Shown: one piece after another, positions 138 through 27,548 of the stretch
Layout of the letters: each line of letters starts with the position of its first letter
How positions within the stretch are numbered: the stretch's first letter is position 1
Origin: an uncultured Oscillibacter sp.
GTDB lineage: Bacteria > Bacillota > Clostridia > Oscillospirales > Oscillospiraceae
Assembly: GCA_945868085.1 (NCBI GenBank)
Contig: CAMBKF010000020.1
Coordinates: 1-36,804 of the forward strand
Reading direction: 5' to 3'
Length of the DNA: 36,804 nt
The notes under the pieces: generated by a model
Seen by the model: only the letters and a program-made list of their open reading frames with translations
Database searches by the model: none
Told to the model about the DNA's origin: nothing
Position numbers and translations under genes: made by a program

Positions 138-164
138 GGCCGCTCCCCCATTGAGGGAACGGCC
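138..164 (-). terminator. Probable terminator of the surface glycopolymer operon
   Basis: Arms GGCCGCTCCC (138-147) and GGGAACGGCC (155-164) form a 10-bp stem with one mismatch and a 7-nt loop. On the minus strand a moderately T-rich stretch follows. It lies about 40 bases past the stop of the last minus-strand gene. The rest of 1-204 shows no convincing gene. Confidence 0.55.
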
Positions 165-204: not shown

Positions 205-1332
205 TCAGCGAATAGCGGTCTCCTGCTTCTGCACTCTGTCATCCTGCAGAATGAGCTCCGTTATCTTTTCGGTGGCGTGGCCCAGGTCCTGGGGCAGGTA
301 CAACCTCTTGTATTCCTGCAGGTCCTCCATGGGGTATGCACCGCTGTCGATCACGCGGAACAGGTCCTCCTGCTCGGTAAAGGTGCAGCGGGGCATGGCC
401 TGAAACAGGTCTATGTTCACGCCGTTTTCGCTGCGGTAGCGGTCATCGTCCGGCAGGTAGAACAGCGTGGGCTTGTCCATGGCCGCCGCCTCCAGCGCCA
501 GGGAGGAATAATCCGTGATAAAATAATCGCACATCTGCAGCAGGTCAAATATATCCTCCTGGGGATAATCACTGTCCCGGTTGCCGCCCGCCAGCGCCTG
601 ATTTGGATGGAAGCGGCACAGCACCGCGTACCGGTCCTTGGGGAAGCAGGAAAAATCCGGATCCGGCAGCTCCAGGGGGTATGTACGGTAAGTAGGCGCG
701 TACAAAACCACCGTGCGCCCGGCCAGCTCCGGGAATCTGCTTCGGCACTGCGCGGCCTCGCCCTTTGCGGAAACCAGATGGTCCAGCCGCGGCAGCCCCC
801 AGTTGCGCAGCCTGTCCTCCGTCACGTCAAAAGCGGCACAGTAAAACGGGTTCCACGCCGGGCCGCCGGCCATGATAAAATCATAGTTCCGGTGCATGCA
901 CAGGGCCCGGGCCATGGCGCCGGACCGCCCGGAGGGCTTATCCAGGGTCTGGTACCCGGATTTTTTGATCTTTCCCACGGAGTGCCAGATCTGGATCACC
1001 CGCAGGTCCTTTTTATCCCGGAGCAGGCAGATGGTGGGCCAGTATCCGTCCAGCACGCAGACCTGAGCCGAGGCGGCCAGGAAAACGCTCCGCACGCACT
1101 GCCATAAAAACCGCAGCGGGCCGTCCTGCCGGCCCCGGTAGCGGCAGCAGATAGTCACGATCTCCATGGTAGGGTCGGTCTTGCGGAGCTGCTGCTGCAG
1201 CAGGGCAAAATCCGGCGTGAGCCGGCTGGCCTGGCGGCTAAAAAAGCAGGTTCTGTGCCTTACGCCCATCCTGCGCCGAAGTGAAAACAGGGCGCTGATG
1301 AGCCAGCGGATCACGCCCACGATCGCTTTCAT
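205..1332 (-). CDS. CDP-glycerol glycerophosphotransferase family protein (TagB/TagF-like)
   Basis: A 375-residue protein of the family that adds glycerol phosphate (or a similar polyol phosphate) to a lipid-linked wall teichoic acid precursor on the inner face of the membrane. Visible motifs are QIWHSVGKIKKSG (residues 114-126), matching the family's WHG-type loop, the YAPTYR segment (211-216), RFHPN (240-244) and YFITDYSSLALEAAAMDKPT (270-289); the two histidines fit the catalytic pair known for TagF. The start at 1332 is chosen because its ATG overlaps the preceding gene's TGA (ATGA), implying translational coupling; an upstream extension to 1446 would only run inside that gene. It is the last gene of the operon, downstream of the TagGH exporter pair. 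The donor is not proven: ribitol- and other polyol-phosphate transferases share these motifs. Confidence 0.85.
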   Translation of the reverse strand: MKAIVGVIRWLISALFSLRRRMGVRHRTCFFSRQASRLTPDFALLQQQLRKTDPTMEIVTICCRYRGRQDGPLRFLWQCVRSVFLAASAQVCVLDGYWPTICLLRDKKDLRVIQIWHSVGKIKKSGYQTLDKPSGRSGAMARALCMHRNYDFIMAGGPAWNPFYCAAFDVTEDRLRNWGLPRLDHLVSAKGEAAQCRSRFPELAGRTVVLYAPTYRTYPLELPDPDFSCFPKDRYAVLCRFHPNQALAGGNRDSDYPQEDIFDLLQMCDYFITDYSSLALEAAAMDKPTLFYLPDDDRYRSENGVNIDLFQAMPRCTFTEQEDLFRVIDSGAYPMEDLQEYKRLYLPQDLGHATEKITELILQDDRVQKQETAIR

Positions 1333-2210
1333 GATTTTCCTCCGTCCGGCTCTTTTCTCCGCCCGGGCACAGCTTTGGCAGCCGCCCCGGTCTTTTTCGC
1401 GTTTTCCATCAGCGCGCCGAAGGCTGCCCGCAGCTTGCCCTGCCAAACCTTGTCGTCATAGGTCCCGCCGCACAGCGCCTGGATCAGCTCAAACAGCATC
1501 TCCGGACTGCACAGGTTGATGACCAGCGGGTTGCGGTGGAATACCTCCCGCACAAAGTCCAGGGTAATCCGGTCCATATGGCGCTTGAGCCCATCCACGA
1601 TCATGGGCGGCGCATAAATGGCGCCGAAGGAATCCCGCACCGTGCTCTCTTTTTTGGCGCCCCGGAGCATGAGCAGCAGATCCTTATAATACGGCAGGCC
1701 GCTGTAGTGAATATACAGCGCCGCCACAAAATGATAGGCCGCCTGCTCGTTGCACTGCTCCAGCTCATACAGCCGGGCAATGTCTCTGTGCAGGTTGCAG
1801 ACGGCGGGAAAATCGCCCTTCTGCATCCGCCGATGCAGCTCCCGCAGGAGGACGCTCCACATAGCCGCGCAGAAGCTCTCCTCCCGATGCTGCTCCCGCT
1901 CCTGCTCAAAGTCGCATACGTCCACATAGGGACTGCAGAACCGGTAAAAGGCCACATATTCCGGATCGATCTGCTTTCGGCCCTCTCTGGTGGCGCTGTA
2001 GCCGCCCAGCTCGTTGCGCTGGATCAGCCTTCTGCGGGCCAGGCCCTTGGCAAAGGTCACGTTATTGACGATATCCAGCTCCGTTTCAAAGGAATCCGGA
2101 TAATTCACCGCCGCCAAGTGCTGGTGCCGCTCCACAAAATCAATGAATACCGAGCGGGAATAGGCATCGCGGCACCGCTTTTTCTTACTGCCATTTATAA
2201 ATGTTGACAT
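1329..2210 (-). CDS. Unrecognised 293-residue protein in the TagGH operon
   Basis: No confident family. It is soluble-looking, with no signal peptide or membrane segment. Residues 1-90 contain a short basic, helical, possibly winged-helix-like part (GLARRRLIQRNELGGYSATR). The rest is helical with many Cys and aromatic residues. The C-terminal half (roughly 95-265) resembles, from memory, the C-terminal domain of SAP-domain hypothetical proteins from Firmicutes and their phages, including an ending of the type LVINLCSPEMLFELIQALCGGTYD minus its first residues; this is a weak recollection. The ATG at 2210 is preferred over an upstream TTG at 2216 because AGAGG lies 6 bases before the ATG and directly abuts the TTG. 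It follows the ATPase gene by 9 bases and overlaps the next gene by 4, so it is co-expressed with exporter and transferase; its role there is unknown. Confidence 0.7.
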   Translation of the reverse strand: MSTFINGSKKKRCRDAYSRSVFIDFVERHQHLAAVNYPDSFETELDIVNNVTFAKGLARRRLIQRNELGGYSATREGRKQIDPEYVAFYRFCSPYVDVCDFEQEREQHREESFCAAMWSVLLRELHRRMQKGDFPAVCNLHRDIARLYELEQCNEQAAYHFVAALYIHYSGLPYYKDLLLMLRGAKKESTVRDSFGAIYAPPMIVDGLKRHMDRITLDFVREVFHRNPLVINLCSPEMLFELIQALCGGTYDDKVWQGKLRAAFGALMENAKKTGAAAKAVPGRRKEPDGGKS

Positions 2211-2219
2211 TTTCAACCT

Positions 2220-2954
2220 CTACACATGCATTTTTTCATAAAACGCCGCCGCGTCTTTAATATCTCCGTCAAAGACCAGCTTGCCCTCGCGGATCACCAG
2301 TCCCCGCTTGCAGAAGTTCTTCGCCTCCGCCGTGGAATGGGTGACAAAGAGGAAGGTCACACCGCTGTTCAGAATCTCTGTGATCCGCCTGCGGCACTTG
2401 GCACGGAAATCCTTATCGCCCACGCTGAGGGCCTCGTCCACGATGATGATGTCCGGGCGGATATTGGCGTTGATGGAGAAGCCCAGCTTGGATTTCATAC
2501 CGCTGGAATAGGTGCGGATGGGCATATCGATATAGCTGCCCAGCTCTGAAAAAGCCACAATATCCGGCTCCATCTCCTTCAGCTCATCCCGGCTGATGCC
2601 CAGCAGCTCGCCGCGGAAATAGATATTCTCCCGGCCGGAAAGCTCCGGATCGAAGCCACCGGAAACCTCCAGCAGGGCGCTGACCCGGCCGGTGACGCGC
2701 ACCGAGCCCACCGTGGGGAATGTCACGCCGGAGATCATCTTCAGCATAGTGGATTTTCCGGCGCCGTTTTTGCCCAGGATCGCCACGGCCTCTCCCTGGC
2801 GGATGTCAAAGGACAGGTTATCGATAGCGACTTTTTTCCTGGCATTCGTATTGCGAAACAGCAAAGACTTCAGCCGCTGCTTGTCATTTTTGAACAGGTC
2901 AAAGGTCTTTGTCACGTTTCGGAACTGTATTACTACTTCGTGTTCTTCAGTCAT
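2220..2954 (-). CDS. tagH: Polysaccharide/teichoic acid ABC exporter, ATPase subunit (TagH/Wzt-like)
   Basis: A 244-residue ATP-binding cassette protein that would power export of a lipid-linked glycopolymer with the adjacent permease. Walker A is GKNGAGKST (about residue 61), the ABC signature is YSSGMKSKLGFS, Walker B is IIIVDEALSVGD, and a switch histidine occurs in FVTHSTAEA. The N-terminal FDLFKNDKQRLKSLL segment and the LLEVSGGFDPELSGRENIY stretch are typical of the teichoic acid/O-antigen exporter branch. It ends right after the nucleotide-binding domain and lacks the C-terminal carbohydrate-recognition domain of Wzt-type ATPases, so substrate choice is probably set elsewhere. The start at 2954 has AGAGG 7 bases upstream, and the TAG stop of the permease gene lies inside that ribosome-binding region. 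Confidence 0.9.
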   Translation of the reverse strand: MTEEHEVVIQFRNVTKTFDLFKNDKQRLKSLLFRNTNARKKVAIDNLSFDIRQGEAVAILGKNGAGKSTMLKMISGVTFPTVGSVRVTGRVSALLEVSGGFDPELSGRENIYFRGELLGISRDELKEMEPDIVAFSELGSYIDMPIRTYSSGMKSKLGFSINANIRPDIIIVDEALSVGDKDFRAKCRRRITEILNSGVTFLFVTHSTAEAKNFCKRGLVIREGKLVFDGDIKDAAAFYEKMHV

Positions 2955-2963
2955 ATCGTACCT

Positions 2964-3770
2964 CTACAAAACATCCGTGATGGTTTTTTCCGTGCGGCTG
3001 TAGATCTTGACGCCCAAAAACACGAAAAGCAGGTAAACCAGCATAAACCGCAGCAGCGACAGTGGTTCCTCCCAGAACCAAATATGATCGATGAAGCAGT
3101 ATCTGAATCCGTCGATGAGATAAGTTACGGGATTGAGCCGCAGAATAAAACGCAGGGCGGTGCCCTTGATCGTGGAGATCTGATAGAAAATGCCGGACAG
3201 CCACATCAGTGCCGTGAATGAGCTGCGGACAAGCTGATAGAAGTCTTTACTGACCGCCGTTACCTGCCCGGAGAACAGACCCCACGCCACGCCCATCATC
3301 AGCATCAGCAGCCAGTAAAACGGCAGCTGCGCCAGGTATATAGTGATCGGTGCGCCCATAGCGATGAAAATGATAATCATCAGCAACGTCAGCGCCAGAT
3401 GCACGATCATATTGGACAAGGCCACGATCATCGGCACACAGCAGACAGGGAACTTGATCTTTTTGACCAAAAACGCGTATTTATGGAGAGAATACGCGCC
3501 CCCCGTATACATGGCGGAGATATAAAACCAGGGGATAAATCCCGAGATGAGCCACAGAAAGTATGGGTATCCCTTTATGGGTTTACCGGTGCGCAGGCCC
3601 ACCGTAAAAGCGAAATAGTACACCCCGATGGTTATGGCCGGTTTTAAGATCGCCCATCCCCAGCTCAGCAGCGCCCCACGATAGGTCTTGATCAGATCCG
3701 TTTTTGCCAGCTGCAGAATCTGATTGCGGTACTGGACATGTGAAATTATAATCTTCCAAAGTGTTTTCAT
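2964..3770 (-). CDS. tagG: Polysaccharide/teichoic acid ABC exporter, permease subunit (TagG/Wzm-like)
   Basis: A 268-residue ABC-2 type permease with about six membrane segments. Features seen: an N-terminal interfacial stretch (QILQLAKTDLIKTYRGALLSWGWAILKP) typical of TagG/RfbA proteins split over a conserved LGxxW-like turn, and the late LNPVTYLIDGFRYCF motif near residue 220 that marks this family. It pairs with the ATPase encoded 9 bases downstream to move the finished or growing glycopolymer across the membrane. The preceding gene ends 17 bases upstream and the two are surely co-transcribed. Confidence 0.9.
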   Translation of the reverse strand: MKTLWKIIISHVQYRNQILQLAKTDLIKTYRGALLSWGWAILKPAITIGVYYFAFTVGLRTGKPIKGYPYFLWLISGFIPWFYISAMYTGGAYSLHKYAFLVKKIKFPVCCVPMIVALSNMIVHLALTLLMIIIFIAMGAPITIYLAQLPFYWLLMLMMGVAWGLFSGQVTAVSKDFYQLVRSSFTALMWLSGIFYQISTIKGTALRFILRLNPVTYLIDGFRYCFIDHIWFWEEPLSLLRFMLVYLLFVFLGVKIYSRTEKTITDVL

Positions 3771-3787
3771 ACTCTACTCTCTTGCCG

Positions 3788-5782
3788 TCACCTGGAGCCG
3801 CGGCATTTATCCTTCTGCGCCGCTCTTTCGGTGAGGTATTTTTTGACGTCTTCCGGGTACAGGGGATATCTATGCAGATCCTGATGGAGATTCACCTCCA
3901 GGATCTTGAACCCATCCTCTGTCACCACGACGTCATAACCCAAATATTCCAGCGGTGACAAATCTCTGCTGATGCGGCAGATCTCATGAGCCAGCCGCTG
4001 CCAGTGGGGCATCTGTCCCCGGATCTCCCGGCCTGTGTCCGGGTGTACCGGGCAGGGCAAAAACTGATGTTCCTGCAGCAATTCGGCCCCGCTGAAGGCC
4101 CCCGTCTGCACATCCAGGGGAACGACCAATCCGCCGTTTGCGATGTTATCCGTCGCCCCTGTGAAGCTGGTGCCAATGCGGAAGTATCCATAGCGGATGG
4201 AGGCCTGTCCCTGCCTGCACAGCACCATAAGCCGCACAGTACCCGTAACGCCGCTGTATATCTCCTCCAAATAGGGGTGCATCCGGATATACTCCGTGAC
4301 GATATAGTCCGCGTCGATCCCGCGGAAGAACTCTTCCAGTTCCTCCCGGCTGCAGGATGTGCCGTTTATCAGGTATAACTGATCGTCTTCCCGGCGCAAG
4401 TGGAAAAAGCCCTTTCCGTGAGAACCTACAGCCGGCTTCATAGCCAGCTCACCCGCCCGGTCCAAACAGTCAATTACATCGCGCCAGCTGCATTCCCCCT
4501 GGCCCTGATAGCCAAAGATCCGCTGCCTGCCATCGCTGACCAGTATCCGGAAGAAGTACCGAGGCAGGTGCTCACTGTAGTCCGCCAGAATATCGGGCAG
4601 GTTGGTTTTGTTCCAAAACCATTTCTGAAATCCCGGATTCAGCGGCCGCAGGCGCTTATACTGATAGTCCGATAAAAAGTTCCGGTAATTCTCCTCCGTC
4701 AGCCCATACTGGGCAATGCGGTAGGAGTAAAAGCCCCGCTTATGCGCCCATCGCTTCTGCGCCCTGGTAGTATGCGCCGTTTGGTTATCCTCCTGCACGC
4801 CGCGCAGCCAGTTGCGGTACATGAAGTCCACAAAACCCCGGCGATGGGCCCGCCATGCAAAGGTATAGGCACGGATCCGGGTAAGCACATCTTTCAGTGT
4901 GCTTTTTTTTCTGCCGCTGCACAGGATCTGCGCGGCCCGACGGCACGGATCCGTCAGCGGATGCACCCAGGCAAGCTCCGTCCCGGTGTCCACACGCAGC
5001 ACAACAAATCCGGCCTCCGTGAGCACAGCGTTTACGCCGACATAGGGCATTTCGGGATAACGCCGGGCAATTTCCCGGGCAAAATCCTCCACACCCTGTA
5101 CGCGGTCATCCTGCCGGTCCGGCTCCCGGTCGACAGCGGAAAACGCAAAGGGACTGTACCCATTTTTATTTCCGTGATCCTCCCACCGCAGCAGGACCTC
5201 CTCCGTCTCTCCTTCTCTGCGCAGCAGCGCACAATGGAGTACGGGAAGCGCCGCTTCCGGGCAGGCATCCCCTGCCGGCTCCATATGCTCCAGCAGCAAT
5301 GTCTGGTCGGGCAGTCGATGCAGAAATGTCAGCAGCTCCGCATCGGTCTGTTCAGCCCCGTCCAAGAGGAGCATCTCTCCCTGCCGGGAAATTCGGTACA
5401 GCCGGCCCTTGGCCCGGTGCTCATTCGGCAGGATCCAGCAGCCATTCCGCTCCCGCAGGAATGTCAGCCAATCTTTTGCCGTTAATTCCGGTGCTGCACC
5501 CGCAAGAGGCACTATACGCCTGCCGCCAACCGTGACGGCCAGGCCATACAGGCTCGGGAAATACTCTCGTCCTAAAACACGGGTGGTGGTGAGCAGATCC
5601 GCGAATAGCTCGTCCATGCGTTTGCGCATAGGATCGCTCAGCAGCAGTTTTTTCAGCAGCGCACGGTTTGCCTCCGGGCAAGTCTTTTCCATCCGCAGAT
5701 AAAACTGTGCAGCATGGAATGTATATCCGCCCAGGACCATTCCCAGTGCTCTCATTTTATTTTTCACTTTAGCCGATCCCAC
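3788..5782 (-). CDS. Large two-module ATP-grasp protein (sugar-transfer-associated family)
   Basis: 664 residues. The C-terminal module (about 375-645) is a complete sugar-transfer-associated ATP-grasp domain: MKPAVGSHGKGFF nucleotide loop (448-460), VTEYI adenine-side strand (495-499), GTVRLMVL (514-521), DNIANGG (545-551) and YDVVVTEDGFKILEVNLHQ (616-634) with the acidic/Asn metal-binding residues. Residues 50-280 look like a decayed version of the same fold without the nucleotide loop. A linker (300-370) shares QKRWAHKRGFYSYRIAQYGL-type sequence with the protein encoded at 7035-9203. ATP-grasp enzymes join a carboxylate to an amine, thiol or hydroxyl through an acyl phosphate; the substrate is unknown. 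The start is uncertain: GTG at 5782 keeps a KVK stretch shared with its paralogue, while ATG at 5755 would give MRALGMVL; neither has a strong Shine-Dalgarno site. Confidence 0.8.
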   Translation of the reverse strand: MGSAKVKNKMRALGMVLGGYTFHAAQFYLRMEKTCPEANRALLKKLLLSDPMRKRMDELFADLLTTTRVLGREYFPSLYGLAVTVGGRRIVPLAGAAPELTAKDWLTFLRERNGCWILPNEHRAKGRLYRISRQGEMLLLDGAEQTDAELLTFLHRLPDQTLLLEHMEPAGDACPEAALPVLHCALLRREGETEEVLLRWEDHGNKNGYSPFAFSAVDREPDRQDDRVQGVEDFAREIARRYPEMPYVGVNAVLTEAGFVVLRVDTGTELAWVHPLTDPCRRAAQILCSGRKKSTLKDVLTRIRAYTFAWRAHRRGFVDFMYRNWLRGVQEDNQTAHTTRAQKRWAHKRGFYSYRIAQYGLTEENYRNFLSDYQYKRLRPLNPGFQKWFWNKTNLPDILADYSEHLPRYFFRILVSDGRQRIFGYQGQGECSWRDVIDCLDRAGELAMKPAVGSHGKGFFHLRREDDQLYLINGTSCSREELEEFFRGIDADYIVTEYIRMHPYLEEIYSGVTGTVRLMVLCRQGQASIRYGYFRIGTSFTGATDNIANGGLVVPLDVQTGAFSGAELLQEHQFLPCPVHPDTGREIRGQMPHWQRLAHEICRISRDLSPLEYLGYDVVVTEDGFKILEVNLHQDLHRYPLYPEDVKKYLTERAAQKDKCRGSR

Positions 5783-5849
5783 CGTACTTCACACACCACC
5801 GTTACATGATCTTTTTGTTGTGCTATTGCGCTGACACAGCCGCGACCGG

Positions 5850-7013
5850 TCAGGGCATTTTATAATAGTTTTCGGACACAGCCACCGTGTTCTTCGGTGC
5901 GTAATCCAGCTTTCTGCCCTCAAGGCCAAGGATCTTTTCCGGCTGGATCCAGGGTCTGTTCTGGATCTGGCTGGTCTCCTCATGGGTCAAATATCCCTTA
6001 TGCGTCACCATGCTCCGGCGCAAAAATCCGTCTCTGGCGCAGGCCTCCGCAATGCCGTTATTGAGGATGCTGCGGATATGCGGTTCTGCCGCTGCAGCAA
6101 TGGCAATGGACGTGGAATTCGCAATAGCGCTGGGGATGTTGCTGACGCAGTAATGCACCACGCCCTCCTCCACATAGGTGGGGTTATCGTGCGTTGTCTC
6201 ATGGAAGGTCTCGATCACACCATAGTCGTTGCTGATATCAACGATGACAGATCCCTTGGGCATGCTTGCCACCATGGACCGGTCGATCAGGAACTGGGTG
6301 TTGCTCTTGTCCCAACGGACACAGTTGACCACCATATCCACCTGCGGCAGGATGCGCCGGATGTTGTAGCGGTTGGAAACAATGGTATTGATTTTCCCAT
6401 CATACTTGGAGGCAATGGTACGCAGATGGCCGACATTTGTGGCGGCTACCGTCACCCATGCGCCCAGGGACTGCAGCACCTCAATGGCTGCCTTGCCCAC
6501 GATGCCGCAGCCCAGCACCAAGGCATGGATGCCGGGTGCCGTACCCAATCCGCTGACAAATTTTCCGCAGCCGCCGTTGATGGTCATCATGGAATACAGG
6601 CCCATGATGACGCCGGCCTTGCCCGCCGCCTCGCAGTTGGGAGAACCATGGCGATGGCTGTCCTCCGCGGCAAAGGCCGTGACCTTTTTCTTCAGCAGCT
6701 CGTCAACTTCCTGGGGATGGGCCGCCGGATGGATGCAGGTGAACACGATCTGCCCCTCCCGCAGCAGGGGGTACTCGGACGGGTCGATCTCCTTGACCTT
6801 GGCAATCATGTCGCACTCCCGATAAATCTCATACCGGTCTGCGAGCACCGCGCCCACCTCTTCGTATTCCCTGTCCGGAAATCCGGCCCGCTCGCCGGCG
6901 CTGCGCTCCACAAGCACCTGATGTCCGTCCTGGATGATATTCTCCACCTCACTGGGAGTGAGAATGACCCTGTATTCTTCTTTCTTGATGTCCTTTAAAA
7001 TTCCTAGTTTCAT
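5850..7013 (-). CDS. Alanine dehydrogenase family oxidoreductase
   Basis: 387 residues of the NAD-dependent alanine dehydrogenase family (pyruvate + ammonia + NADH to L-alanine). Residues that match the known active site are all present at almost the textbook numbers: R15 (EEYRVILTP), K74 (AKVKE), H95 (CIHPA) and D263 (ISNDYG). The nucleotide-binding turn is LGCGIVG (167-173), and TTHDNPTY and HYCVSNIPSA follow near 275-295. The ATG at 7013 is chosen because GGAGG lies 8 bases upstream; an ATG at 7028 lacks one. It is more divergent than housekeeping Ald (for example GTAPGIH where VPGV is usual) and lies between two ATP-grasp genes, so a dedicated role making or consuming an amino acid for the surface polymer is an inference. 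A carboxyethyl-ornithine/lysine synthase-type relative cannot be excluded. Confidence 0.85.
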   Translation of the reverse strand: MKLGILKDIKKEEYRVILTPSEVENIIQDGHQVLVERSAGERAGFPDREYEEVGAVLADRYEIYRECDMIAKVKEIDPSEYPLLREGQIVFTCIHPAAHPQEVDELLKKKVTAFAAEDSHRHGSPNCEAAGKAGVIMGLYSMMTINGGCGKFVSGLGTAPGIHALVLGCGIVGKAAIEVLQSLGAWVTVAATNVGHLRTIASKYDGKINTIVSNRYNIRRILPQVDMVVNCVRWDKSNTQFLIDRSMVASMPKGSVIVDISNDYGVIETFHETTHDNPTYVEEGVVHYCVSNIPSAIANSTSIAIAAAAEPHIRSILNNGIAEACARDGFLRRSMVTHKGYLTHEETSQIQNRPWIQPEKILGLEGRKLDYAPKNTVAVSENYYKMP

Positions 7014-7034
7014 CTGATAGGCCTCCATTCCGCT

Positions 7035-9203
7035 TTACTTGAGTTTATAGATGTTCTTCTTGATCCTGATCTTTTCGGCAAAGAAGTCCTTGATCTCCTG
7101 GCTGTGGGTAGCCACCTTATGCAGATCCTGATGAATATTGATCTCGATCACCTGGAAGCCCTCTTCCGTGATGGCGATGTCAAAGCCCAAATACTCCAGT
7201 TCTCCCAGATAGCGGCAAATATCCAGCACTTTTTCACGGATCTCCTGCCAGTTGGGCAGAATACCGGCAATGGGCGTTCCGGTATCCGGATGGACGGGGC
7301 AGGGATGGAATCTGTGCTCTGCGATGGTCTCCGGGTCATGCAGTTCTCCCGTTTCGGAATCCACCATCACGCAGATGCCGCCGTAGCCCACGTTATCTGT
7401 AAAACCGGTGGTAGACGAACCGATGCGCATATAGGTCTGCATGATTTTTGGATCATAGCCGTGGGAATTGATCACCATCACCCGCACCGTGTTGACGGAC
7501 TTGGGATAAATCGCCTTGAGCATCGGATGCATGTTGATGTATTCGGTGATAACATAGAACGACTTCCGCTGGGAAATGATCTGCCAAAGCTGATCTGCTG
7601 TTGTCTCCTCGCCGTTGACGGTATATTTCCCGTCCTCATAGGCCAGGCAATAGAATCCATCTCCATGGGTGCCGGAGGATGGCTTCATTGCCAGCTTTCC
7701 CTTCCGCTCCAGCATGGTCAGAATCCCCTTCAGGTCGGGTTGCACATCCTCGTCGCAATCCCACATTCTGCTGATATGGGGTGTGCCGCGCCGCTTGGTG
7801 ATAGCGAAATAGTATTTCGGAATATAGTCCGCAAAGGGATCCAGGACCAGGCGGAATGTCGTCTTGTCATTCACCCAAAGCTGATAGATGTTGTTGATCC
7901 GGTTGAGCCAGTGATAGTCATAATCCGAGAGGAAGTTCTTGTAATTCTCCTCCGTGAGGCCGTACTGCTCAATTCGGAAGGACAGGAAGCCCCGCTCCCA
8001 GCACCATTTTTTCTGGGCAGGGGTCGTGGTCGTGGTGTTCTGGCGGTCACTCTCCATCTGATCCAGCCAGAGCTGCTGCATATAGGGGCGGATCCCCTTG
8101 CGGCCGGTCTTCTGCAGATAGCTGTAATGCCGTCTTCTCTTCAGGTCTTCCCAACGCATCTTCATGGTGATCTCACCCATGCGCTCCTTTGCGTCGGCCG
8201 CCTTGCTTCTGAGATAATCGTTATGTCTCTGGCTGATACGGCTCTTCTTGCGGAATGGCTTTGCGGAAAAATGCAGGAAGGTAAAGCCCCCCTTGTCATC
8301 CAGGGCAATGGACACCGTGAAATAATCCAGCAGGTCAAGCTCACGAGCCGTCTGCAGCAGCTCCGAACAGACGGTCTGCCACCCGGGCACAAAGAACTTT
8401 TCATCGCCCAGGACAAAGCTGCCGTCCTCCTCTACAGAACAGTTCGCCCAGCTGCGTCCAGCTGCTTTTACATCCAGCTCACAGTCCAGAATCTGCGGCT
8501 CCTCGCCCGCGTCATTGCTCAGCCAAAACTTGATGAAGTGCTGGCCGCTGAGTTCCGGGGCAAAGTCGAACTGTGTGTCAACATATTCCGCCACTATATA
8601 GTTCGACCGCAGTCCATTGATCACACGGCGCAGATACTCCTGGTCATCCCGTCGGGTCTGCCCGTTTATGAAAATCATTTCCTTTTCATAGCTCAGCTCA
8701 TACCGGGTACTTTTGCTTTCCCAAAATGCCGGGCGCAGTTCCACACGGCCCTTGCTGATAACAAGATCGATCACATCCTGCGCCGTGCAGGGCCGGTCAT
8801 AGTCCTCGCCCTTGGACAGGATGATCTGTTCACCGCGCCTTTGGAAAATGGAGAAGTATACCTTGCGGCAGTGATCACTCTGCCTTTTCAGCACGCGATT
8901 CGTGGTAATAATATCTCCGATCCATTTGCTGAAGTTATTATTGAACGGGGATAAAAACATATACTCAAAGTCCGTCACATACTTGTCCGACCGATCATTG
9001 AGCAGGTCATATGTCTTGATGCTCTGCGACAGGTACCCGCGCCGATGAATGTCATCCAGCGCACTCCGCCCATACCGCTTGGCATTGTTCCGGTTATCCC
9101 GCATAACGGCCTTTCTCCAGGATATGGCCATGCCCCGTGAGTATCCATGACGCATGATGCTCCAAAGTTCGTTTTCGCGCTTGACTTTTTTTACGATATT
9201 CAT
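7035..9203 (-). CDS. Large two-module ATP-grasp protein, paralogue of the 3788-5782 product
   Basis: 722 residues. The C-terminal ATP-grasp domain (about 445-695) has MKPSSGTHGDGFY (506-518), VITEYI (551-556), NTVRVMVIN (571-579), DNVGYGG (603-609) and FDIAITEEGFQVIEINIHQ (674-692). The N-terminal module (about 90-316) repeats the same order of elements (KVYFSIFQRRGEQ, then a segment aligned to the nucleotide loop, then NYIVAEYV, then a final TVSIALDDKGGFTFLHF), but the loop is replaced by LRPAFWESKSTRY, so it should not bind ATP normally. The start at 9203 (MNIVKKVK) is chosen because it leaves a normal gap after the sugar transferase gene and has AGAGGG upstream; longer readings would overlap that gene. 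The product is probably cytoplasmic and probably modifies the glycan or its precursor; the substrate is unknown. Confidence 0.8.
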   Translation of the reverse strand: MNIVKKVKRENELWSIMRHGYSRGMAISWRKAVMRDNRNNAKRYGRSALDDIHRRGYLSQSIKTYDLLNDRSDKYVTDFEYMFLSPFNNNFSKWIGDIITTNRVLKRQSDHCRKVYFSIFQRRGEQIILSKGEDYDRPCTAQDVIDLVISKGRVELRPAFWESKSTRYELSYEKEMIFINGQTRRDDQEYLRRVINGLRSNYIVAEYVDTQFDFAPELSGQHFIKFWLSNDAGEEPQILDCELDVKAAGRSWANCSVEEDGSFVLGDEKFFVPGWQTVCSELLQTARELDLLDYFTVSIALDDKGGFTFLHFSAKPFRKKSRISQRHNDYLRSKAADAKERMGEITMKMRWEDLKRRRHYSYLQKTGRKGIRPYMQQLWLDQMESDRQNTTTTTPAQKKWCWERGFLSFRIEQYGLTEENYKNFLSDYDYHWLNRINNIYQLWVNDKTTFRLVLDPFADYIPKYYFAITKRRGTPHISRMWDCDEDVQPDLKGILTMLERKGKLAMKPSSGTHGDGFYCLAYEDGKYTVNGEETTADQLWQIISQRKSFYVITEYINMHPMLKAIYPKSVNTVRVMVINSHGYDPKIMQTYMRIGSSTTGFTDNVGYGGICVMVDSETGELHDPETIAEHRFHPCPVHPDTGTPIAGILPNWQEIREKVLDICRYLGELEYLGFDIAITEEGFQVIEINIHQDLHKVATHSQEIKDFFAEKIRIKKNIYKLK

Positions 9204-9259
9204 TATTCTCTGCCCTCTTTTAACTTTTTTGGGGATAAAACTGACAATTCGCAGGAAGC

Positions 9260-9886
9260 TCACATAACTCCGCTTCCGGACAGCACCACCGTGACGGACT
9301 TTACCATGCACCACAGATCCAGCCGCAGGGATCGTTTTCTCTGGTACTCCGCATCCAGCCTCGCCTTGCGTGCAACGCCGATGCTGTCCCGGCCCAGCAC
9401 CTGGGCATAGCCCGTGAGACCCGGACGCCCCTCAAACACGCCCATCTTTCTGCGCAGGGCGTTGAGCTTCTTTTCAGACGTACACACCGGACGGAAGCCC
9501 ACAAACGACATATCGCCCCGCAGAATATTGAACAGCTGCGGCAGCTCGTCGATGCTCAGGCGGCGCAGAAGCCTGCCCAGCTTGGTGGAGCAGCCGTCGA
9601 TATTCTCCAGCTGCCGCGTCGCCACATTGTCCGGCGCGGTTATGCTAAGCGTTCTGAACTTGAAGATCACGAACTCTTTTCCGTGATACCCGATTCTTTT
9701 TTGTTTGAAAATGACCGACCCGGGTGAGTCGATCGCAATGGCCGCCATCACGAGGAGCAGCAGCGGCAGCAGCGCCACGATCAAAACCAGGGACAGCACG
9801 ATGTCAAACGTGCGTTTTATAAACAAATAGGCCGTTTTGCGCTGGCTGACCTCGCGGATCTCTATTTTATTTGCAACAGCGTCCAT
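9260..9886 (-). CDS. Polyisoprenyl-phosphate sugar-1-phosphate transferase (bacterial sugar transferase family)
   Basis: 208 residues of the monotopic phosphoglycosyl transferase family that loads the first sugar phosphate from a UDP-sugar onto undecaprenyl phosphate. After a basic stretch comes KRTFDI and one hydrophobic segment (about 28-50), then KQKRIGYHGKEFVIFKFRT, IDELPQLFNILRGDMSFVGFRP (about 113-134, including the catalytic-type Asp-Glu) and PGLTGYAQV. The length fits the small PglC-like form. It lies 23 bases after the surface-protein gene and should start the lipid-linked repeat unit exported by the TagGH pair. The sugar specificity cannot be read from the sequence. Confidence 0.9.
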   Translation of the reverse strand: MDAVANKIEIREVSQRKTAYLFIKRTFDIVLSLVLIVALLPLLLLVMAAIAIDSPGSVIFKQKRIGYHGKEFVIFKFRTLSITAPDNVATRQLENIDGCSTKLGRLLRRLSIDELPQLFNILRGDMSFVGFRPVCTSEKKLNALRRKMGVFEGRPGLTGYAQVLGRDSIGVARKARLDAEYQRKRSLRLDLWCMVKSVTVVLSGSGVM

Positions 9887-9909
9887 TGTTCCTCACCACC
9901 GCGCTTTCT

Positions 9910-11190
9910 CTAGTTTTCCATTTTCTCTTTTTGTCCGTCCGGCTCCTCCGTATAGGAGCTGAGATACGGCCGGAAATAAGCGATCTCCTCGCTCTTTTTG
10001 CTCTTTGTCTTCATCTTTTTCCAGTTCAGCAGCAGCCACGCCCCGGCAATCAGCAGCACCGCGATCACCACCAACAGCGCCGCTGTGGAAATATGGCTCA
10101 GCAGCCCGGACTTCTCCTCCAGAGCCACGTTATCCGTGCGCACCAGCAGGTCCACCTGCCCGTCCGCATTTTTGACGTAATACATGTCCCCCTGCTTGTT
10201 GTTCAGAAACAGGATATTGTCCTCACCGCCGCAGGAGATGTACTTTTTCCCCTCGATGGTCACAAAGGACACCGTGGTCAGCGCGTGAGACGTAGGCTCA
10301 TACCGCCGCCAGATGGTATGCTCGGCATTGGCCGAATCCTCATACTGCACCAGCAGCATGGACAGGCCCGTGCTCTGGGCGATCCGCCCCTTGAAGCCGG
10401 TCTCGCTCACCGTACGGAACACGCCCGGCAGCGCCGTCAGATCCGGCTCGCTCATCTGCTCGTAATGCACACCGTCTGCATAGTACTCGCTGTTATCCAT
10501 CACGTGGATCAACAGGGTATACTCCTCCGTAAGGCCGCCGTTATAAACGCGGATCTTACGCTTGATATCCGTATTCACAAATTTTTCCTCGCCGCTGACG
10601 CTGACGCTGGAATAGGAATCGCTGGGCACGGCGGTAATGGCGCAGCTCTTCTCCGGCTGCTCCGCCGTTACATAGACCGTATACTCATATACCTGGGGAT
10701 CAAACGCCGGATAGAGCTCCCCGCAGGCTATGGAAATGGAACTCAGCGACGCGTCCCGCACGGGTGCCGGCGGCTCCACCACCGGATCATCCACAACCGG
10801 GTCAGGATCCGGCGTCGGATCGGGATCCGGTGTCGGGTCAGGTGTCGGCGTCGGATCGGGGTCCGGTGTCGGGTCAGGGTCCGGTGTCGGCGTCGGGTCA
10901 GGATCCGGTGTCGGATCAGGGTCCGGTGTCGGATCGGGATCCACACCGGGGTCGGGCTGCTTACCAGGATCCGGATCCTCCCCGGAGCCGGGGTCCTCGC
11001 TGGGATCGGTAGTGCCGCCGGAGGCAGGATCCTCCGGAGTGGTCACCGAGCCCACGGTCATCGCCCCGCCGGCAGAACCGGTTTCCTCCGTTGCCGCAGG
11101 GTCGGCAAAGGCGCTTGCGGCCACGCACGGCAGCACCAGCACGGCGGCAAGAAGGAGCGCCATCAGTTTTCTCATCCCTTGGTGTTTCAT
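9910..11190 (-). CDS. Pro/Asp-repeat, membrane-anchored surface protein with cadherin-like beta-sandwich domain
   Basis: 426 residues: signal peptide (MKHQGMRKLMALLLAAVLVLPCVAASAFA, with likely cleavage before DPAATEE), a long low-complexity stalk of DPDPTP units (about residues 60-135), a domain starting ASLSSISIACGELYPAFDP that matches the cadherin-like beta-sandwich family (PF12733 type; about 143-232), a further extracellular part (about 235-365), one C-terminal membrane helix (ISTAALLVVIAVLLIAGAWLLL) and a basic cytoplasmic tail of about 40 residues. There is no sortase motif. The start at 11190 has AAGGCGG upstream; MRKLMA at residue 6 is an alternative. Its position between the LCP transferase and the first sugar transferase suggests it holds, receives or spaces the glycopolymer at the envelope, which is inference. 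Confidence 0.8.
   Translation of the reverse strand: MKHQGMRKLMALLLAAVLVLPCVAASAFADPAATEETGSAGGAMTVGSVTTPEDPASGGTTDPSEDPGSGEDPDPGKQPDPGVDPDPTPDPDPTPDPDPTPTPDPDPTPDPDPTPTPDPTPDPDPTPDPDPVVDDPVVEPPAPVRDASLSSISIACGELYPAFDPQVYEYTVYVTAEQPEKSCAITAVPSDSYSSVSVSGEEKFVNTDIKRKIRVYNGGLTEEYTLLIHVMDNSEYYADGVHYEQMSEPDLTALPGVFRTVSETGFKGRIAQSTGLSMLLVQYEDSANAEHTIWRRYEPTSHALTTVSFVTIEGKKYISCGGEDNILFLNNKQGDMYYVKNADGQVDLLVRTDNVALEEKSGLLSHISTAALLVVIAVLLIAGAWLLLNWKKMKTKSKKSEEIAYFRPYLSSYTEEPDGQKEKMEN
10796..10950. repeat. In-gene tandem repeat encoding the Asp-Pro-Thr-Pro stalk
   Basis: Degenerate units related to GGATCCGGTGTCGGATCGG on the plus strand recur with periods that are multiples of 6 bases (6, 12, 18). All changes keep the reading frame, so unit gain or loss would lengthen or shorten the stalk without breaking the protein. 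Confidence 0.8.
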
Positions 11191-11233
11191 GATACCGCCT
11201 TTCCTTATCTATCTATCGTTATCTATTGTTCTC

Positions 11234-12739
11234 TTACGACTGGCTGTCCTCTGTCCCGTTCAGCACGTTCTGGATCATCTCCCGGGCCGTCTGCACGGAT
11301 GCCTCATTCTGCGGCATGACCCATGCCTCGGCCCCGCCCAGGGAGTAGCACGGCTGGCTGGTGCTGCCGCTGCCCTGGGTCACGGCGTAGGTGTCGATCT
11401 TCCACTCGGACATATTGGTCAGCTGCGTGCGCACCAGGGCCGTGATATCCTCGTAGCTCAGGTTCGTGGTCATATTGTTGGAGACCGCCGCCAGAATGCT
11501 CTGATAATTCACCAAGGTGGAGGCCTTGGTGAGCTTGGCCGTCAGGGCCTGGAGAATGGCCATCTGGTTCTTGCCCCGCTGGTTGTCACCGTCAGCGAAG
11601 CCGTAGCGCTCCCGGGCGAAGGCCAGGGCCTTGGCGCCGTCCATGTGGTTGACGCCTTCCACCACTTCCCGGTCAATATCCCCGGACTTGGAGCAGGCGT
11701 TGGTGCTTAGGGTAAAGCTCATGGGAGAGACCACATCGATCCCGCCCACGGCATCCACGATGTCCTTGAGCCCGTAGAAATTGATGCGGGCATAGTAGCT
11801 CACATCCACGCCGTACAGGTTCTCCAGCGTGGCGATGGACTCCTCAATGCCGTAGATGCCCGCATGGGTGAGCTTGTCCATCTGGCCGTTTCTCGCCAGG
11901 GGCACATAGTAGTCTCTGGGCGTATTCACCAGCAGGATCCGGTGGGTGGTGGGATTGACCACCGCCAGGATATTCGTGTCGCTCCGGGCGCGGACGGATA
12001 CATCCGTGCTGCGGGCGTCCGAGCCGCTGAGATAAATAATGTAGCTGTCCGTCAGTACGTTCGTATTCACGGGCACCACCTGGTCCGGCTCCTGGGCATA
12101 GTAAAACTCATGGACCAGCTTCACCTGATCCGAAAGGTCCGTCAGGCCGTCGGTCTCCTCCAGGGTGTCGAGAAACGCCTCATTGAGCAGCATGACGTCC
12201 ACATCGCCGCTCAGCAGGGCGGAAGCCAGCTCCACCGAGGAGTCCAGTTCTTTTTCATCCACCACGCCCACGGCGTCCTCCATGTCCTTCAGGGCCCGCA
12301 GGGTGTTGTCCCGATCCGGCTGCGCGGCGATGCCCAGCAGGTAGCCGCTCACGTCCTTCAGCTCCTGGGCCGGGTCATCTGCGCGGACATATACGCCCAC
12401 ATAGATGCCCTCTTTCCGCTCCTTGGAGATGTCGCGGAACGCGCCAGACACCTTCCCCACGGCTACCATGGCCACGATCATGGCCGCCGTCAGCAGCAGG
12501 GCGATAACGCCGCACACGGTCTTGCCCACGTGCACCTTTCCCTTGCCCAGCTGCAGCCAGATGTGCAGGCCGTTGAGCAGCACCAAGCCGCCGGTGATGG
12601 CCCACACGATGCCCTTGTTCAGTAGGCCCGAGGTAAACAGCAGGATCACCAGCACGATGCTGGCCGCCGCCATCAGGCCCATGCAGGCCAGGCAGAAGAT
12701 CTTCTGTCCGTTTATAGTCTTATTGTTTTTTTCGCTCAT
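11234..12739 (-). CDS. LytR-CpsA-Psr (LCP) family glycopolymer transferase
   Basis: 501 residues. LCP enzymes move finished glycopolymers from undecaprenyl carrier to peptidoglycan (or protein) outside the membrane. Three hydrophobic segments lie within residues 13-97, followed by an accessory extracellular domain (about 108-235) and the LCP domain: SDTNILAVVNP, VNTPRDYYVPL, DKLTHAG, RINFYGLKDIVDAVGGIDV, and a final MDGAKALAFARERYGFADGD followed by NQRGKNQ. The conserved Arg and Asp residues that bind the pyrophosphate lipid are present. The ATG at 12739 is chosen for GGGAGGA 7 bases upstream. It lies 28 bases after an ATP-grasp gene in the same operon and would attach the polymer made by this locus. 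Confidence 0.92.
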   Translation of the reverse strand: MSEKNNKTINGQKIFCLACMGLMAAASIVLVILLFTSGLLNKGIVWAITGGLVLLNGLHIWLQLGKGKVHVGKTVCGVIALLLTAAMIVAMVAVGKVSGAFRDISKERKEGIYVGVYVRADDPAQELKDVSGYLLGIAAQPDRDNTLRALKDMEDAVGVVDEKELDSSVELASALLSGDVDVMLLNEAFLDTLEETDGLTDLSDQVKLVHEFYYAQEPDQVVPVNTNVLTDSYIIYLSGSDARSTDVSVRARSDTNILAVVNPTTHRILLVNTPRDYYVPLARNGQMDKLTHAGIYGIEESIATLENLYGVDVSYYARINFYGLKDIVDAVGGIDVVSPMSFTLSTNACSKSGDIDREVVEGVNHMDGAKALAFARERYGFADGDNQRGKNQMAILQALTAKLTKASTLVNYQSILAAVSNNMTTNLSYEDITALVRTQLTNMSEWKIDTYAVTQGSGSTSQPCYSLGGAEAWVMPQNEASVQTAREMIQNVLNGTEDSQS

Positions 12740-12767
12740 TTTTAAATCCTCCCATAGGGTCGCTCTG

Positions 12768-13823
12768 TCACCGGATGACACCGTGCTTACGGTAGAAATT
12801 CCCCAGCTCGCCGTTGCGCTGACCGCCCCAGAGCTGGATGATATTCACGCCGGAGGAGGTATTGGCCTCGATGATGCAGTTAGTACCGTCCTCCATCTTC
12901 ACCACATCCCACGCCACAAAGTGCAGAAACGGCAGGCTCTCCGCCAGGCCCACGATCTCCGCCTTGGTCTGCTCCCAATCGGGGATCACCACCTGGTCAA
13001 AACGGATGCCGGAGTCCGGATGCTCCTCATAGATCTGGGTAGTATGCAGGGACCCGGCATGGGACAGCCGCCCCGTTTCCAGGTCGATCCTGCACACAAG
13101 GCCGCCCTGGCTGGCGTTGTCCACCGGGATGGTCTTGGCCGTGCCCACCCGCTGCACGGCGAAAAACAGCTTGATCTTGCCGCTGTCGGGATCCCGCAGG
13201 GTGATCATGCGGATGGTGTTGCAGGTCTTGTCATACAGCCCCGCCGCGTAGGCGTGCTGGGTGATGGTCTCGGAGAGATACCACTCGCTCTCCTTTTCGA
13301 ACAGCCTCTTCATTTCCTCGGCGGATCTTTTCTCCTGATCCACCCAAAAATCCTGTCCGTCATAGCGCAGGCGGTGTACGCCGTTGCCCTTGCCCTTGCC
13401 GAAGGGCTTCATGAACACCTCCCGGCACCGGCGCAGTGTCTCCACGGCCACAGCGCCGTCCTTTGTGCAGTGGCCTGCGTCCACGATGCCCGCCCGGGTC
13501 TTCACCAGGTAGACCTCCGGGACCCGGACATACTGCCGCAGCACCTCCGTGGCCACCACCTTATTGTTGAGCATCTGGTCAAAGGGCTCGTTTATGTAGC
13601 GGGAGCGGTACCAGTCGAACTCCGACAGATACTCCTTCTTTTTCTTCCCGTCCAGAGAGTACAGCGCCCACTGGTCGGCCAAGAAGCCGCCGCCGAAGTT
13701 GGCCCGCAGCTTTGTGAAAAAGCCCACCTTCATGTGGTTGGGGGCAAACACGATCCGCCGCCAATACAGCACGAACAGCCGCAGGTGGTTAAAGCAGTTC
13801 CGATACAATTTAAAAACGTCCAT
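12768..13823 (-). CDS. Single-module ATP-grasp protein (sugar-transfer-associated family)
   Basis: 351 residues with one intact ATP-grasp module: VFMKPFGKGKGNGVHRL nucleotide loop (about 137-153), WYLSETI, CNTIRMITLRD (about 202), DNASQGGLVCRID (about 234) and WDVVKMEDGTNCIIEANTSS (about 301-320) with the metal-binding Glu and Asn. It lacks the N-terminal decayed module of the two longer paralogues and has the usual E-A-N-T-S-S-G ending where they have E-x-N-x-H-Q-D-L-H, so it belongs to a different subgroup and may act on another substrate. The start at 13823 has only a weak Shine-Dalgarno match. It is the second gene of the operon. Confidence 0.85.
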   Translation of the reverse strand: MDVFKLYRNCFNHLRLFVLYWRRIVFAPNHMKVGFFTKLRANFGGGFLADQWALYSLDGKKKKEYLSEFDWYRSRYINEPFDQMLNNKVVATEVLRQYVRVPEVYLVKTRAGIVDAGHCTKDGAVAVETLRRCREVFMKPFGKGKGNGVHRLRYDGQDFWVDQEKRSAEEMKRLFEKESEWYLSETITQHAYAAGLYDKTCNTIRMITLRDPDSGKIKLFFAVQRVGTAKTIPVDNASQGGLVCRIDLETGRLSHAGSLHTTQIYEEHPDSGIRFDQVVIPDWEQTKAEIVGLAESLPFLHFVAWDVVKMEDGTNCIIEANTSSGVNIIQLWGGQRNGELGNFYRKHGVIR

Positions 13824-13869
13824 AATATGTACTTCTTTTCTTTATTGGATTTCGCCGCAGTCGGTCCGG

Positions 13870-14442
13870 TCAGCAGTCCGCCTTTTCCGCAAAGCGCCGA
13901 TATTCTTCCTCTGTGTTAAAGCCGGTAGTCTCGTCCTCAATGCGGCATATCTCCGCACAGCCATCCTGCTGGGCCATTTCATACAGCTGCCAGCCCCGGC
14001 ACGCGGGATCCCTCTCCTTCAGCTTCCGGATGCAGTCCTTCTGATAGGCACCATCCGCCACCTTCACGGCAAAAACCTCCGTGTCGTTCCTGGCAAAGCC
14101 CAGAGCCTTCACCGGCATCTCCACGATCCGGCGGATGGCCTGCTCGGTGTAATACACATCGCCGTACAAAAAGCATACGTCATCGTCGATCAGCTCCCAG
14201 GTGAAACGATCGATCTCGCAGCTGTTGCTTTTCGGTTCATAGCGCACGGCCCCGGGAGCCTCGTAGTTGGGGTTATGAGAAGTGATGACCACCTGCGCCC
14301 CCGGCGCGTAGGTCTGCGCCAGCCGCGCCGTGCGCAGCAGGATCGGCTCGCCGTGGACAGGGAGCAGATGCTTGGGGACCAGGCGGTTATTCCACCGGGT
14401 CATCTTCCCGTCTGCCATGATGATAAATCTTTTTATAGCCAT
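13870..14442 (-). CDS. Short nucleotidyltransferase (NTP transferase family)
   Basis: 190 residues of the GT-A-fold nucleotidyltransferase family, which activate a phosphate compound with an NTP. Seen: the N-terminal substrate loop FIIMADGKMTRW, PKHLLPVHGEPIL (about residues 20-32), DDDVCFLYGDVYYTE with the metal-binding Asp, and a late TTGFNTEEEYRRF typical of the family's last helix. The usual GxGTR core is changed to DGKMTRW, as in several small cytidylyltransferase-like enzymes of surface loci. The start at 14442 (MAIKRFI) is set by the first motif; upstream sequence lacks a good ribosome site. First gene of the operon; it could supply CDP-glycerol or another activated donor, which the sequence does not decide. 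Confidence 0.75.
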   Translation of the reverse strand: MAIKRFIIMADGKMTRWNNRLVPKHLLPVHGEPILLRTARLAQTYAPGAQVVITSHNPNYEAPGAVRYEPKSNSCEIDRFTWELIDDDVCFLYGDVYYTEQAIRRIVEMPVKALGFARNDTEVFAVKVADGAYQKDCIRKLKERDPACRGWQLYEMAQQDGCAEICRIEDETTGFNTEEEYRRFAEKADC

Positions 14443-14781: not shown

Positions 14782-14832
14782 ATATCCATCTTGTGAATTG
14801 CCGCTCACGACATGTATCGACGGAGACGAAAT

Positions 14833-17056: not shown

Positions 17057-17068
17057 GGGGGCAAGACC

Positions 17069-18061: not shown

Positions 18062-18063
18062 CT

Positions 18064-18516
18064 ATGCAAACAGAGAAAAAGAAAGAGACCGCCCGGGTCA
18101 TTAAGTTCGTGCTGTTTTCCGCCTCGGCGGGCATCATCGAGACGGTGGCCATGATCCTCTGTGAGGAGGTTCTGAAGATCCCCGGCCACTGGGTCTGCTA
18201 CACCATCGCCCTGGTTCTGAGCGTGCTTTGGAACTTCACCTTCAACCGAAAGTTCACCTTCCAGAGCGCGGCCAATGTGCCCCGGGCCATGCTTTTGGTG
18301 TTCCTGTTCTATGTGCCCTTCGCGCCGTTCACCATTTGGAACGAGCACTTCCTGGCAGACACCCACGGCTGGAACGAGTATGCCGTTCTGGCCATCAACA
18401 TGGCCCTGAATCTCTCCCTGGAGTATCTGTGGGACAATTTCGTAGTTTACCGCAACAGTAAGGATACCAACGACATCGCTAAGAAAAAGCAAGGAAAGGA
18501 GCAGCAGCATGAATAA
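18064..18516 (+). CDS. GtrA-like membrane protein
   Basis: 150 residues, four membrane segments and the family mark NFTFNRKFTFQS (about 52-63) between helices two and three. GtrA-family proteins are thought to flip polyprenyl-phosphate-linked sugars or aid glycan modification. The ATG at 18064 is preferred because GGAAGG (18051-18056) then sits 7 bases away; the ATG at 18058, which overlaps the aldolase stop, is too close to it but remains possible. Its presence in a sugar kinase/aldolase/aminotransferase operon hints that the product is used at the cell surface rather than only in catabolism. Confidence 0.8.
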   Translation: MQTEKKKETARVIKFVLFSASAGIIETVAMILCEEVLKIPGHWVCYTIALVLSVLWNFTFNRKFTFQSAANVPRAMLLVFLFYVPFAPFTIWNEHFLADTHGWNEYAVLAINMALNLSLEYLWDNFVVYRNSKDTNDIAKKKQGKEQQHE

Positions 18517-27518: not shown

Positions 27519-27548
27519 AGCTTCCATCTCCTCGCAAAAAGATACCCT

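Follow-up and report, generated by a model that had tools for sequence, protein, structure and literature searches.

The locus described here occupies positions 205 to 14,442 of a 36,804-nucleotide stretch of DNA (the window) from an uncultured Oscillibacter sp., and its closest described counterparts are the wall teichoic acid (Tag/Tar) pathway, DltABCD and teichuronopeptide synthesis. As in the Tag/Tar pathway, the locus encodes a TagGH exporter, a Glyphos_transf enzyme and a LytR-CpsA-Psr (LCP) attachment enzyme; unlike that pathway, it includes a Bac_transf sugar-phosphate transferase, and ATP-grasp proteins and a dehydrogenase are added. TagD (TIGR01518) gave no match at E 0.001 in the source assembly, a metagenome-assembled genome that is 84.5% complete (1.96 Mb, 60 contigs). 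Dlt D-alanylation uses carrier-protein transfer; an amino-acid substituent would likewise be added to a wall polymer by the window locus, but by what would be cytoplasmic ATP-grasp chemistry. No DltA over the cut-off was found in the 84.5% complete assembly, where DltB, DltC and DltD were not searched for, and the weak DltA hit was an acyl-CoA ligase (122 versus 560 bits). Teichuronopeptide of Bacillus halodurans is a wall polymer of glucuronate and glutamate in whose synthesis tupA is involved, according to the accessible part of the source (PMC8153356). TupA (PF14305) is an ATP-grasp according to Pfam, of another family than the PF14397 proteins of the window; it is not among the twelve window genes and is present in the related loci L009, L029, L083 and L084.

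Amino acids and opines are also amide-bonded to surface glycans in O-antigens, examples in the part of the source available being carboxyethyl-lysine on GalA in Providencia rustigianii O14 and alanopine on Qui4N in P. alcalifaciens O35 (PMC10609480). Those O-antigens belong to Gram-negative lipopolysaccharide, whereas the window holds a TagGH/LCP locus of a bacterium with named relatives among the Oscillospiraceae. In excerpted form, one source includes an "ATP-grasp amino acyl ligase" among the members of a clostridial carbohydrate cluster (PMC4000134) and two discuss ATP-grasp domains in other settings (PMC2824669, PMC12419801). We found no description of ATP-grasp and opine or alanine dehydrogenase (Ald) enzymes in a TagGH/LCP locus in the open-licence literature searched, and nothing there on PF14397/ATPgrasp_ST by family name. 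Amino-acid decoration of surface polymers is already known; the new element would be a swappable dehydrogenase/tandem ATP-grasp cassette.

On balance we favour the view that this is a polymer locus with an inserted decoration cassette, in which a dehydrogenase would supply an amino compound that a tandem ATP-grasp protein, AGb, ligates before export. This reading is carried by the gene content of the locus, the co-conservation of AGb with a dehydrogenase, a natural swap of that dehydrogenase and the retained catalytic residues of the ligase. The gene-level link between ligase and dehydrogenase is strong.

Amine-forming dehydrogenases beside AGb

A contig scan with an AGa/AGb alignment, AGa being the second tandem ATP-grasp protein of the window, yielded five loci, on contigs labelled Oscillospiraceae or Oscillibacter in four cases and Clostridia in one. 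When 400 genomes of the family were searched for AGb, the long form (E < 1e-90) was present in four: the source genome, G029, G261 and G298. As G261:C35 is letter-identical to L027 and the G029 sequence is common with L028, there are seven AGb loci, namely the window, L025, L026, L027 (= G261), L028 (= L009, G029), L029 and L030 (= G298); genes in parts of L006, L025, L026, L034, L036, L041, L043 and L081 were placed by tblastn. An order-wide search of 394 genomes gave, beyond the source genome, only single-domain relatives (32-38%, in 3 genomes), and no dehydrogenase match was found in L057-L059.

An amine-forming dehydrogenase is present in all seven AGb loci, and in six it lies directly downstream of AGb, with gaps of 16-72 bases. 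The slot is filled by three families: an alanine-dehydrogenase-family enzyme, Ald2, in three loci (the window, L025 and L026), an enzyme like N(5)-(carboxyethyl)ornithine synthase (CEOS) in two, and an octopine dehydrogenase (ODH; PF02317) in two (L027 and L029). The CEOS-like gene directly follows AGb in L030, while in L009/L028 a PGA_cap/Mur-ligase protein stands behind AGb and the CEOS-like gene is elsewhere in the cluster; in L009 it sits behind a 25-residue relic of the AGa C-terminus (68% identity). The co-occurrence of ATP-grasp and Ald proposed in the sequence-only reading, which was made from the letters of the window, is thus upheld in a broader form: AGb goes with an amine-forming dehydrogenase throughout, and Ald itself is missing from four of the seven loci. 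Since one slot takes any of three dehydrogenase types beside one ligase, the best reading is that the dehydrogenase provides the ligase with an amino compound.

CEOS and octopine dehydrogenases catalyse the reductive coupling of an oxo acid with an amino acid. The label "CEOS-like" is a weak one, given because plasmid relatives at 30-32% identity are annotated as CEOS; in the tree, Lactococcus CEOS clusters with these enzymes at 100/100, in a branch that unites long branches and may be inflated. The L027 dehydrogenase matched N-(1-D-carboxylethyl)-L-norvaline dehydrogenase (1BG6) at E 4e-31 over 344 of 358 residues. In the relatives the compound is probably an opine, an N-1-carboxyalkyl amino acid; in the window an opine-like amino acid and alanine are about equally probable.

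The Ald2 arrangement is retained in L025 and L026, which share 88.5% identity over 12.9 kb. In both, each of the twelve window genes has a homologue inside a span of 16 kb; the gene order differs and a Mur-ligase/LRR gene is added. AGb and Ald2 are still adjacent, and conservation is highest for Ald2 (79% versus 30-67% for the other proteins). A natural swap is seen between L027 and L030, which come from one genus. They are collinear over 7052 bases at 78.8% DNA identity, a block comprising a nucleotidyltransferase (NT), the single-domain ATP-grasp AGc, the Glyphos_transf enzyme (GPT), AGa and AGb, whose proteins are 80-90% identical, and they align again from a MoaA-like gene onward (1366 bases, 75.5%). 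The single gene between these blocks is an octopine dehydrogenase in L027 and a CEOS-like gene in L030, with no similarity between the two (E 1.6).

All six genomes examined of this genus gave an ATP-grasp query match, AGb being found only in those of L027 and L030. The core GPT-AGc-NT-TagGH is present in five of the six; L027 shows the core up to NT, at a contig end. Beside the same core, the four AGb-less congeners carry two-TupA-domain proteins (L083, L084), PF14397 with PGA_cap (L082) or further PF14397-like stretches (L081), and these four stretches (7 to 14 kb) gave no Ald, CEOS or ODH match. L009 and L029 additionally hold a UDP-glucose-type dehydrogenase, whose product would be a uronic acid, together with a TupA ATP-grasp and Mur-ligase proteins. 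BspA-type leucine-rich repeats are fused to an ATP-grasp or Mur-ligase protein in L009 (6934-10011) and L025 (14350-16305), and such fusions are unusual for enzymes presumed cytoplasmic. In L032 (6834-10261), a CEOS-like gene lies near genes for a MurT_C protein and a weakly matching GATase_3, a pair that we take to be of the peptidoglycan-amidating type.

We also looked for the association more widely, in 150 genomes of the family evenly drawn from a larger group. Above the cut-offs, these contain 50 places with PF14397 (44 loci) and 35 with Octopine_DH. Eleven PF14397 rows were dropped (ten under the cut-off and G122, which passed only with its neighbours), as was one Octopine_DH row (G113, under the cut-off); one of the weak ATP-grasp rows so removed, G139:C14, has an Octopine_DH place 8.6 kb away. 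Six of the 35 Octopine_DH places, in four genomes (G002, G038, G054 and G120), are within 2 kb of a PF14397 gene, versus 0.02 expected by chance if genomes of 2.2 Mb are assumed. For PF05222, 2 of 24 places are within 13 kb of PF14397 (0.08 expected), these two being the window and G029. Octopine_DH / ATPgrasp / Octopine_DH triplets occur in L023 (32-3294) and L075 (236-3580), short contigs in which no match to core polymer genes was found beside them. Another phylum offers a sequence parallel: a polysaccharide cluster on an Escherichia coli plasmid has annotations for an ATP-grasp, a CEOS and a nucleotide-sugar dehydrogenase; its ATP-grasp, read from L056, had no Pfam match at 0.001, so that PF14397 identity is not established.

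Gene content of the window locus

The twelve minus-strand genes fill the locus as the sequence-only reading had described: the open reading frame (ORF) positions confirm an uninterrupted run in which several genes overlap or nearly touch and the largest gap is 67 bases (5782/5850). Its assignment of exporter, transferase, LCP, ATP-grasp and Ald-like roles was borne out by Pfam and NCBIfam domain searches, as follows.

138..164, minus strand: terminator-like hairpin after GPT, 12-pair stem
205..1332, minus strand: GPT, Glyphos_transf, a TagB/TagF-like polyol-phosphate transferase (Pfam PF04464, E 1e-45)
1329..2216, minus strand: g02, unknown protein (no Pfam/NCBIfam match at E 0.01)
2220..2954, minus strand: TagH-like export ATPase (PF00005; top NCBIfam match TagH, 232.8 bits, cut-off of 538 not reached)
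2964..3770, minus strand: TagG-like permease (PF01061, ABC2_membrane)
3788..5782, minus strand: AGa, tandem ATP-grasp with catalytic C-terminal half (PF14397, E 1e-30)
5850..7013, minus strand: Ald2 (g06), alanine-dehydrogenase-family enzyme in the dehydrogenase slot (PF05222/PF01262, AlaDh_PNT N + C)
7035..9203, minus strand: AGb, tandem ATP-grasp that defines the cassette (PF14397, E 2e-37)
9260..9886, minus strand: Bac_transf sugar-phosphate transferase (PF02397, E 4e-54)
9910..11190, minus strand: g09, repeat-rich protein with a cadherin-like domain (PF12733, at threshold)
11234..12781, minus strand: LCP attachment enzyme (PF03816, E 1e-34)
12768..13823, minus strand: AGc, single-domain ATP-grasp of the core (PF14397, E 6e-35)
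13870..14442, minus strand: NT, MobA-like nucleotidyltransferase (PF12804, NTP_transf_3, E 1e-4, under the cut-off)

ATP-grasp ligases couple a carboxylate to an amine. AGa, AGb and AGc passed the PF14397 gathering cut-off of 31.4 with 107, 130 and 121 bits, respectively, and are the only PF14397 matches in the assembly. AGa and AGb are each two-halved and 31-32% identical to one another, and profile comparison of their N-halves with their C-halves gave a probability of 99.9 (E 1e-36). As read from the alignment, the N-half is a degenerate copy that has lost the loop and metal ligands. The C-half retains the ATP-grasp Lys, Gly loop and D/E/N residues in 12/12 proteins, apart from one Gly in L025 AGa, and the single-domain ATP-grasps retain K139, D312, E319 and N321 in 9/9 rows, five of them AGc; we take these to be catalytic and metal-ligand residues. 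By sequence, AGb had no match in the PDB, and the profiles of the AGc-type single-domain ATP-grasp and of NT had none among solved structures. AGc adjoins NT in the window, L025, L026, L027, L030 and L081-L084. The three ATP-grasps, earlier treated as one set, fall into two groups: AGc belongs to the core with NT and GPT, and the variable cassette holds the tandem-domain proteins AGa and AGb.

AGb probably starts at 9203 (722 aa), as judged from the gene caller and aligned homologues, although its ORF is open to 9314; Ald2 probably starts at the ATG at 7013. GPT scored 109.9 bits against NCBIfam TarB, under that model's cut-off of 500, and NT homologues are 43-48% identical. Homologues of g02 were confined to L025/L026 among the loci compared (30-34% identity). 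An in-frame tandem repeat at 10798-10942 encodes a Pro-Asp-rich PDPTPDPDP stretch in g09, perhaps a wall-spanning linker. The hairpin rests on a consensus scan that returned 26 terminator-like sites versus 13.7 in shuffles, and promoter-like sites in that scan were at chance level (8 versus 9.2). Elsewhere in the window, a TetR regulator is divergent from the polymer locus and is followed on the plus strand by FGGY kinase, class II aldolase, GtrA-like and class III aminotransferase genes (14812-20005). A heavy-metal-type P-type ATPase with two HMA stretches is encoded at 23268-25760, and a SpoVAD gene at 26496-27527, because of which the host is probably a spore former.

Ald2 and its free copies

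Ald2 scored 259.8 bits against the alanine dehydrogenase equivalog TIGR00518, missing the curated cut-off of 391.85. R15, K74 and H95 (aligned to the solved Ald 2EEZ), presumably substrate-binding and catalytic residues, are invariant in 20/20 Ald2 proteins. These form their own tree branch of 20 rows (99/100), apart from the CEOS branch with Lactococcus CEOS, so that membership of Ald2 in the CEOS branch was ruled out; long branches on the CEOS side are flagged in this tree, which was built without L028 (a copy of L009), L012 (a copy of L072) and the partial L048. Inside Ald2, the three locus enzymes make one branch with 100/100 support. The PF02317 domain is absent from Ald2 and from its whole genome assembly. 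CEOS and octopine/opine dehydrogenases fill the same slot in related loci, but the window enzyme belongs to neither family.

Three columns, N126, L180 and S261, are common to Ald2 and CEOS against nine canonical Alds, a set from which the divergent Ald-like L066 and L067 were excluded. N126 and S261 occur in 9/9 and 8/9 CEOS, respectively, and in 0/9 canonical Alds, and we take them to lie in two active-site motifs. These shared columns weakly favour an opine-like substrate. The NAD-binding Asp column reads 12 D, 7 A (the three locus enzymes included) and 1 G over the 20 Ald2 proteins; the change to Ala was discarded as a mark of the cassette, as it is found in free Ald2 copies too.

Neighbours were annotated for eight of the free copies. 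Among them are a Glt symporter, a methyltransferase, and a C39 peptidase accompanied by AMP-binding and radical-SAM proteins; also found were a Na+/H+ antiporter-like protein, an anion transporter, an M20 peptidase, an acetyltransferase and a set of SBP_bac_5, PGA_cap and racemase-like genes. Judging from its distribution, Ald2 is an enzyme that the polymer locus has probably recruited. The Ald-like gene is the sole PF05222 match in the source assembly; because 129 of the 150 family genomes are without one, this neither helps nor refutes the reading.

A predicted decoration route and its alternatives

The substrates, bond, acceptor and order of steps that we infer are these. The locus would make a teichoic-like wall polymer started by the Bac_transf enzyme, for which NT and GPT would supply and add an activated unit; the decoration cassette would be a variable insertion in this polymer locus. 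The dehydrogenase would convert an oxo acid, an amine and NAD(P)H to a small amino compound. AGb, with AGa, would activate a carboxylate with ATP, and AGb would attach the amino compound to the polymer precursor, at a carboxyl or an amino group, in the cytoplasm, before TagGH exports the polymer and the LCP enzyme anchors it. The presence of TagGH and LCP points to export and wall attachment, and a conserved ATP-grasp/dehydrogenase unit with no DltA found makes cytoplasmic, pre-export ligation the best reading. The sequence-only reading had proposed such ligation of amino acids, alanine or a relative; the proposal is supported for an amino compound, but not for alanine as the general substrate, as four of the seven loci have CEOS-like or octopine-type enzymes and the window enzyme misses the alanine dehydrogenase cut-off.

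Several observations weigh against this reading. Most PF14397 loci are without such a dehydrogenase, and only two of 12 short-ATP-grasp loci, chosen before dehydrogenases were looked for, had one. The window-type Ald2 arrangement is limited to three related loci. Near-full-length Ald2 proteins, 56-68% identical to that of the window, occur in 18 other genomes of the family (partial pieces in G191:C104, G185 and G179 excluded), and none of the 18 fetched stretches, some of them short (5.6 to 19 kb) or ending soon after the gene, has a match to a window or L009 ATP-grasp or to TupA near Ald2, so that the enzyme works also without such ligases. Nine alignment columns unite Ald2 with canonical Ald versus CEOS and only three unite it with CEOS, and the Ala of the three locus enzymes in place of the NAD-binding Asp is shared with free copies. 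Further CEOS-like relatives (26-30%, from the same listings) are annotated as alanine dehydrogenase, and no annotated ATP-grasp is near the CEOS gene on a Streptomyces plasmid or the ODH gene on a Cytobacillus plasmid. The AGb-less congeners G331 and G220 hold CEOS-like genes on other contigs (L031, L032). There is no nucleotide-sugar dehydrogenase in the window locus, the sole one found in the genome being TviB-like and part of a different polysaccharide locus, which carries Bac_transf-like and LCP-like genes of its own.

It is possible, if on the unlikely side, that Ald2 is a true alanine dehydrogenase and that the ATP-grasps, as a substitute for Dlt, attach the L-alanine it makes to the polymer. 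Alanine dehydrogenase is indeed the closest family match of Ald2, and the retained R15, K74 and H95, the nine shared columns and the lack of a DltA over the cut-off all suit this explanation, as do L-alanine amides of uronic acids, known in glycans from the available part of the source (PMC10609480). Against it stand the missed TIGR00518 cut-off, N126 and S261, and the other dehydrogenases that occupy the slot in four of the seven loci; a metabolite as common as alanine would also seem not to need a source of its own. We consider it improbable that Ald2 is catabolic or redox-related and in the operon for regulation only, with AGb using ordinary amino acids of the cell. Some free copies do adjoin transporters, an M20 peptidase or a peptide-binding-protein gene, but the adjacency to AGb outlasts rearrangement of the remaining locus and, where Ald2 is absent, other dehydrogenase families replace it.

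It is doubtful, too, that the ATPgrasp_ST proteins act on sugar or polyol units as kinases or phosphotransferases rather than as amino-acid ligases, or that the opine-type product of dehydrogenase and ligase is a separate small molecule. The lack of AGb or AGc relatives among solved structures by sequence and the position of AGc beside NT would fit, as would the PF14397/Octopine_DH pairs without core genes nearby in G002, G038, G054 and G120, where two contigs are short and G054 has a generic ABC ATPase match at 24%. In one genus, however, AGa/AGb cassettes alternate beside one core with TupA-type and PGA_cap-associated ATP-grasps, and tupA, as far as the accessible text goes, is involved in synthesis of the glutamate and glucuronate wall polymer (PMC8153356). 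A chance neighbourhood, which a 60-contig, 84.5% complete assembly might suggest, has a vanishingly small probability: the arrangement recurs in seven loci from several assemblies, and its conservation in L025/L026 and the swap in L027/L030 rule it out.

Beyond the decoration cassette itself, we tentatively raise a wider possibility, on which we would not wager: that wall polymers of Oscillospiraceae-related bacteria carry interchangeable opines, one gene from three families setting which N-carboxyalkyl amino acid the tandem ATP-grasp attaches, so that close species would differ in surface charge or antigen by the swap of one dehydrogenase. If this is true, opines and other oxo-acid-derived amino acids would be building blocks of TagGH-exported wall polymers, and these bacteria would have a Dlt-independent route to charge tuning as well as a serotype-like variation system. 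The PF14397 ATP-grasps would then gain a concrete substrate class to assay.

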